From assembly GCF_001244545.1 (NCBI RefSeq), contig NZ_LN852696.1, positions 310,001 through 374,000 on the forward strand: DNA of 64,000 nt, in the 5' to 3' direction. Source of the DNA: Candidatus Stoquefichus sp. SB1. GTDB lineage: Bacteria > Bacillota_I > Bacilli_A > Erysipelotrichales > Coprobacillaceae. The position numbers and the translations under genes are program-made. The notes beneath the pieces were generated by a model. That model made no database searches and had not been told where the DNA came from. It saw only the letters and a list, made by a program, of their open reading frames with translations. Shown here piece after piece: positions 14,316 through 14,462 of the stretch (positions within the stretch are counted from its first letter, which is position 1; each line of letters opens with the position of its first letter).

Positions 14316-14462
14316 ATGAATAGTTTTGAAACGCGTGGGTTCGTTGAACACACACACACACACACACACACACACACACACACACACACATTTTTACGAA
14401 TGTTATCTTTTATGGAAGGAGGACATGTAGTCCTTCTTCTCAAGAAGGGTGGTGTCGGCTAG
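14316..14462 (+). CDS. Tip ORF 3, carrying a (CA)n tract; candidate phase-variable ORF
   Basis: A 48-residue ORF starting 28 nt after ORF 2 and stopping 25 nt before ORF 4, so it obeys the same linker rule as its neighbours. It opens MNSFETRGFVEH, like ORF 6 (MTNFEFDVGF), then the microsatellite encodes a His-Thr repeat, then FLRMLSFMEGGHVVLLLKK. With one CA unit fewer, the frame instead ends in a TGA overlapping the ATG of ORF 4 (ATGA at 14488-14491). With one unit more it stops at 14428. It may be a degenerate cassette or a translational switch. Confidence 0.4.
   Translation: MNSFETRGFVEHTHTHTHTHTHTHTFLRMLSFMEGGHVVLLLKKGGVG
14348..14390. repeat. (AC)21 dinucleotide microsatellite
   Basis: A perfect 43-bp alternating A/C tract in the middle of the tail-fibre tip array. 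Tracts of this length are rare in bacteria and slip readily during replication. It lies 11 codons into a short ORF, so each 2-bp change alters the downstream frame. Confidence 0.97.

Follow-up and report, generated by a model that had tools for sequence, protein, structure and literature searches.

A perfect dinucleotide repeat inside a prophage tail module is likely the slippage site of a phase-variation switch that varies the production of a small tail-tip protein. The repeat lies within a stretch of 64,000 nucleotides from Candidatus Stoquefichus sp. SB1—hereafter the window, to whose positions the coordinates refer. Contingency genes driven by slippage are textbook knowledge for host-adapted bacteria, and gut and rumen phages probably switch their tail-tip genes by copying slips in the way these bacteria switch their surface genes.

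The tract comprises (AC)21 plus a final A at positions 14348–14390 of the plus strand without interruption, n = 21 being the copy count as assembled across this 43-bp repeat. It sits in a short leader ORF of 48 amino acids (14316–14462, plus strand; MNSFETRGFVEHTHTHT...KKGGVG), whose start codon is the ATG at 14316–14318, and begins at the final base of codon 11. Recomputation of the frames gives three distinct stops. With 21 copies, the leader ends at a TAG (14460–14462) 25 nt ahead of the ATG at 14488, where the next tip ORF starts; with 20 copies (likewise 17, 23, and so on), it ends at a TGA (14489–14491) that overlaps this ATG as ATGA; and with 22 copies (likewise 19, and so on), it stops at a TAG at 14428–14430. 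The tract and stop coordinates, the 25-nt gap, and the ATGA overlap of the initial annotation are all correct to the base, and the tract with its leader is confirmed as a real feature. A long uninterrupted repeat, in or near a coding sequence and with a unit that is not a multiple of three, is what characterizes SSR contingency loci, and (AC)21 is such a repeat; going by the sequence, gain or loss of one unit also changes the product, with one of the three stops lying on the next start. A stop overlapping a start with a weak Shine–Dalgarno (SD) sequence, as in coupled gene pairs, arises only at n = 20, 23, and so on. The chance of (AC)21, calculated as (pC*pA)^21, is about 2e-28 per position, and the tract is the only (CA)8 or longer repeat in the 3.59-Mb genome. 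The sequence TTGNACACACACACACAC is present in only 2 of 315 genomes of the order: the window genome and G031, where it likewise belongs to a tail-tip leader.

Position 14348 lies in the tail module of a prophage. Here, a long tail-fibre-like protein (8407–11964) is followed on the plus strand by a DUF859 tail protein (11967–13442; family matches PF05895 and phrog_372) and by an array of small ORFs of 97 to 128 amino acids. This array opens with a fixed, repeat-free leader ORF (13453–13578) and continues with a tail-tip ORF (13585–13941) that is a paralogue of the one at 14488–14832 (51% identity) and with a more distant relative of 106 amino acids (13967–14287) directly upstream of the AC leader. 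The tip ORF putatively controlled by the leader (14488–14832, 114 amino acids) has the ATGA start; behind it lie a tip ORF of 97 amino acids (14860–15153) with no family match above chance and the last tip ORF before the holin (15128–15514). A Phage_holin_4_1 holin (15551–16018, family match) marks the downstream end of the array and is followed by an NlpC/P60 lysin. Hence, with the DUF859 tail gene upstream and the holin and lysin downstream, the tip ORFs are placed as expected for receptor-binding proteins. The tip ORF at 14488 has no Pfam or PHROG match; its structure model is a low-confidence all-beta fold (pLDDT 63) with weak PDB matches, none at E<=0.001, and its product shares 97% identity with a protein predicted for Caudovirales sp. 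ct7oE3. Elsewhere in the prophage structural region (3947–5756), two adjoining near-duplicate ORFs of 275 and 274 amino acids with almost identical C-terminal halves lie on the minus strand, opposite to the tail genes.

The tip ORFs hardly pair with the anti-SD sequence: calculated energies are +0.6 (13600), +0.4 (14488), and +0.2 kcal/mol (14860), and those of the head and tail genes range from −6 to −12 kcal/mol. The leader ATG at 14316 has no SD sequence, like the ATG at 14488; for the leader, this counts against the proposed switch. As the ATG at 14488 lacks a ribosome-binding site, translation of this tip ORF plausibly relies on ribosomes that reach it from upstream. Between 13941 and 15180, the spacing of the tip ORFs is near-constant at 25–28 nt, again without SD sequences, which suggests that initiation across the whole array is unusual and possibly coupled.

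The stretch of about 100 bp from the tract to the tip-ORF start is a module that the window shares with seven further loci (L024, L178, L264, L400, L429, L430, and L435). Its order is a first hairpin H1 whose 5′ arm contains AAGGAGG or a near match, the motif GAAGGGTGGTGTC, a second hairpin H2, and mostly an ATGA start. In the window, H1 (AAGGAGGAC / GTCCTTCTT, loop ATGTA; 14416–14438) carries the stop of the n+1 frame in its loop, the conserved AGAAGGGTGGTGTC follows at 14443–14456, and H2 (TGTCG / CGACA; 14453–14476) carries the n = 21 stop in its 14-nt loop. The arms of both hairpins were chosen by eye from predicted folds. The stem of H1 is completely paired in 6/6 leaders compared, with compensatory changes on both sides that replace inner pairs together (GAC/GTC, CTAC/GTAG, TTAC/GTAA, TACTT/AAGTG); H2 is paired in each leader compared and is more variable than H1. 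Throughout the module, one stop lies within or right at the loop of H1, a second within or close to the loop of H2, and the third on the ATG: the gaps to the next start are −4, 25, and 57 in the window and in L400, and next to −4 they are 19 and 57 in L024, 28 and 66 in L178, and 28 and 60 in L264. A pattern search blind to the repeat recovered true members of the module only behind AC tracts (eight loci including the window), the remaining matches being without its other parts. In a search of 395 genomes from the class, the window locus was the only chromosomal one. L429 (AC15) and L024 (AC8) share nearly the same module and diverge after H2; hence, the leader precedes different sequences in them.

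Such hairpins might also point to phase-variable transcription attenuation, in which the hairpin would be a terminator that leader ribosomes keep from forming in open frames. Several leaders, for example both of L111 and that of L178, have strong hairpins with a T-rich 3′ side, which is consistent with this. However, several leaders lack a T run, and no intrinsic terminator was found in the window between 13300 and 15700; terminator attenuation was hence rejected for the window locus, and we regard it as quite improbable as the explanation.

Equivalent leaders with other repeats argue for the phase-variation switch. The sister species G001—the nearest relative compared—has a homologous array, whose leader behind DUF859 carries G10 and lies ahead of a tip-ORF counterpart. 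The window's repeat-free leader at 13453–13578 corresponds to this poly-G leader and ends in ...SPIEREVKA, and the G11 frame of the sister ends in ...SLKEREVKA. The shared endings indicate that the leader is an old component of the array that has hosted different repeats. Among further prophage loci of gut Firmicutes, located through DUF859 or the holin, leaders contain G9 (G031), G10 (G033), AC8 (G030, a Massilimicrobiota MAG), TA15 (L076), and AGAGC23 (L085, Sellimonas caecigallum); L111 combines AC9 and G9 leaders in one phage. Ribosomal or transcriptional slippage was discarded as the common mechanism, as it is conceivable for poly-G and not for AC, TA, or AGAGC units. In 57 holin-anchored loci, the tip side (5 kb each) bears six tracts in 247 kb and the opposite side one (T20) in 218 kb.

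L068 carries three poly-G tracts: one in a leader, one ending a tip ORF, and one within a tip ORF, the last of these corresponding to a classical ON/OFF frame. The tracts in its tip ORFs are a G11 inside one of them, open in the present frame, and a G10 at the 3′ end of another, for which one frame overlaps the next start (L068:5011–5415 and L068:1752–2090). Directly after poly-G, a hairpin taking in the final bases of the G tract recurs (L068:5457, L111:6442, G001 (L022), and L342:3465; for example GGTTAGAAA/TTTCTAACC and GGTACTGT/ACAGTATC), which may favour slippage or affect translation.

Across ten tip-array loci—nine leaders and the tract ending a tip ORF—exactly one of the three frames overlaps the next start in 10/10 cases, with a gap of −4, −7, −8, or −13; the stops of the remaining frames lie 18–91 nt upstream of it. 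Shuffling the spacers by dinucleotide gives a chance of 0.03–0.47 per locus for such an overlap; the product over nine leaders is 3.5e-8, which overstates their independence since the loci are partly related. All ten of these first-found loci are now in a non-overlap phase, which counts against the switch, although the phases of the wider set below are even. For a wider view, we searched viral contigs for an SD sequence and an ATG followed by G9 or (AC)7, leaving the downstream sequence unconstrained; the leaders were pooled with those of other loci and kept if an ORF of at least 70 amino acids lay within 200 nt. The scan's total of poly-G leaders is a lower bound, that is, at least the number found. 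Among the matches listed, exactly one frame overlaps the start by 1–14 nt and the remaining two end 10 nt or more ahead of it in 45 of 98 non-redundant leaders, against 9.3 expected from shuffled spacers. Among these matches, the overlap comes at n−1 in 17 leaders, at n in 12, and at n+1 in 16—an even spread as expected for a freely switching locus. The genes upstream of the leaders have tail-protein PHROG matches in 8/10 sampled cases. Scanning viral contigs simply for (CA)10 gave, among the matches listed, mostly contigs without such a leader.

Taken on its own, the window locus would have one overlapping frame with a probability of 0.14 (shuffled spacers), as could be the case if the microsatellite were neutral, the leader decaying or a pseudogene, and the frame arithmetic due to chance. 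However, this position is repeatedly occupied by unrelated repeat units, the stops and the hairpins show conservation, the overlap exceeds the shuffled expectation in the wide scan (among the matches listed), and the tail, holin, and lysin genes adjoining the tract are intact, which makes a neutral origin very improbable.

Natural differences in copy number accord with slippage. L396 (AC10) and L402 (AC9), which stem from different metagenomes, have 0 mismatches in 4,746 nt and are one AC unit apart; the frame table places AC9, but not AC10, in the overlapping phase. Three further pairs (L413/L417, L421/L257, and L168/L201) have 0 mismatches over 1.26 kb and differ in tract length alone, with the caveat for all such contig pairs that metagenome assemblies can miscount repeats. 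Close copies of the window locus itself were found neither in INPHARED phages nor, by tip protein or exact flank, in viral contigs. Different repeats in equivalent leaders, the one-frame-overlap geometry in the ten loci and in the scan (among the matches listed), and related leaders differing in copy number in otherwise identical DNA thus support the initial annotation's reading of a three-frame contingency locus. Its toggling of coupling to the next tip ORF also gains support, at the level of the DNA, from the ATG at 14488 that lacks a ribosome-binding site. It had called such loci rare in tail loci and known from host-adapted pathogens; the former is not borne out, as these leaders recur in gut and rumen phages, and the host here, a relative of Candidatus Stoquefichus from the gut, is not a pathogen.

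For the switch favoured here, we infer slippage at the window locus, translation of the leader, the ON frame, and a benefit to the phage. Slipped-strand mispairing in replication would alter n and move the leader ORF among its three frames. The frame would set where the ribosome stops—in the H1 loop, in the H2 loop, or on the tip-ORF start at 14488 (ATGA)—and this position would set which hairpins open and whether ribosomes end on the tip-ORF start. The overlap frame at 20 or 23 copies would be the likeliest coupled, high state, because the overlap is kept in every locus, and the early stop at 22 copies would likely be the low state. The gap of 25 nt at n = 21 equals the gaps at the junctions of the array, and hence this frame may be productive as well. 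It might even be the main ON state: phase variation would then be real, but the frame stopping about 20–28 nt before the next start would imitate the fixed junctions, with the overlapping frame as a second ON or modified state. This would fit the other array junctions of the window, the repeat-free leader at 13453, which is fixed in the corresponding frame and ends upstream of the next start, and the three AC leaders from cultured hosts or close to them (window, G030, and L111), all of which now stand at gaps of 18–25 nt. However, the overlap frame alone persists across all ten loci, and it is enriched fivefold in the wide scan (among the matches listed), and the other gaps are not constant beyond the AC class. 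An ON state at n = 21 is therefore unlikely as the main one, and the overlap frame remains our preferred high state.

The host surface seems to bear similar repeats. The window's host genome carries a G10 at the start of a polysaccharide-type nucleotide-sugar epimerase/dehydratase gene (G000:C4:590182, L145:4183), and G001 has a counterpart of this gene and a further poly-G sugar gene. A host surface varying by slippage would favour a phage with a likewise varying tip. Within the host genus, nucleotide-sugar epimerase/dehydratase genes and another enzyme bear poly-G, and tracts of G10–G11 lie at or just before starts in G001:C6 (L143 reverse strand 3313 and 8240) and G001:C5 (L142 reverse strand 3885); those of L142 and L143:8240 have the stop-overlaps-next-start geometry of the phage leaders. 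In genomes of relatives (L113, L131, and L135), poly-G lies between promoter-like −35 and −10 elements (TTGACA...GGGGGGGGGTA..), which suggests promoter phase variation by spacer length in this bacterial order.

SSR contingency loci are described for Neisseria, Campylobacter, and similar bacteria (PMC5084427, PMC4965091). The window locus shares with them a 5′ coding repeat and would share frame-shifting slippage, reversible states, and a link to surface-interaction genes. Unlike them, it belongs to a phage tail module, its repeat lies in a separate leader ORF, and the proposed switch acts via the position of the leader stop relative to the next start. PMC3711429 catalogues translational coupling through overlapping stops and starts, with phase variation and coupling as separate classes. 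As in that coupling, the stop of an upstream frame overlaps a weak downstream start; the difference is that only one of three slippage frames would couple, so that coupling itself would be phase-variable. Phages are known to vary their tails by diversity-generating retroelements or DNA inversion, as with BPP-1 Mtd, Mu Gin, and P1 Cin. Here too, tail or receptor-binding genes would be diversified inside a phage lineage, whereas the variation would arise from replication slippage in a repeat; near the AC tract, neither a retroelement nor a recombinase was identified. The literature searched, whose coverage is partial so that an earlier description is possible, yielded only varying bacterial receptors for SSR phase variation around phage tail genes, and it contained no account of the combination proposed here, in which a leader-ORF repeat would control tail-tip ORFs in phages of gut and rumen.

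More tentatively, and with somewhat less than even probability, the leader of about 100 nt with its repeat, two hairpins, three stops, and start overlap might be a mobile phage cassette that is shuffled before unrelated tip ORFs and acts as a three-level dial, bet-hedging tail composition against poly-G-variable host surfaces. The signature of these leaders is simple and testable, and routine annotation misses them because they are short and usually out of frame. If the switch is real, one lysogen can release mixed particles with different tips without a recombinase or retroelement, which would bear on our understanding of gut phage host range and phage resistance.
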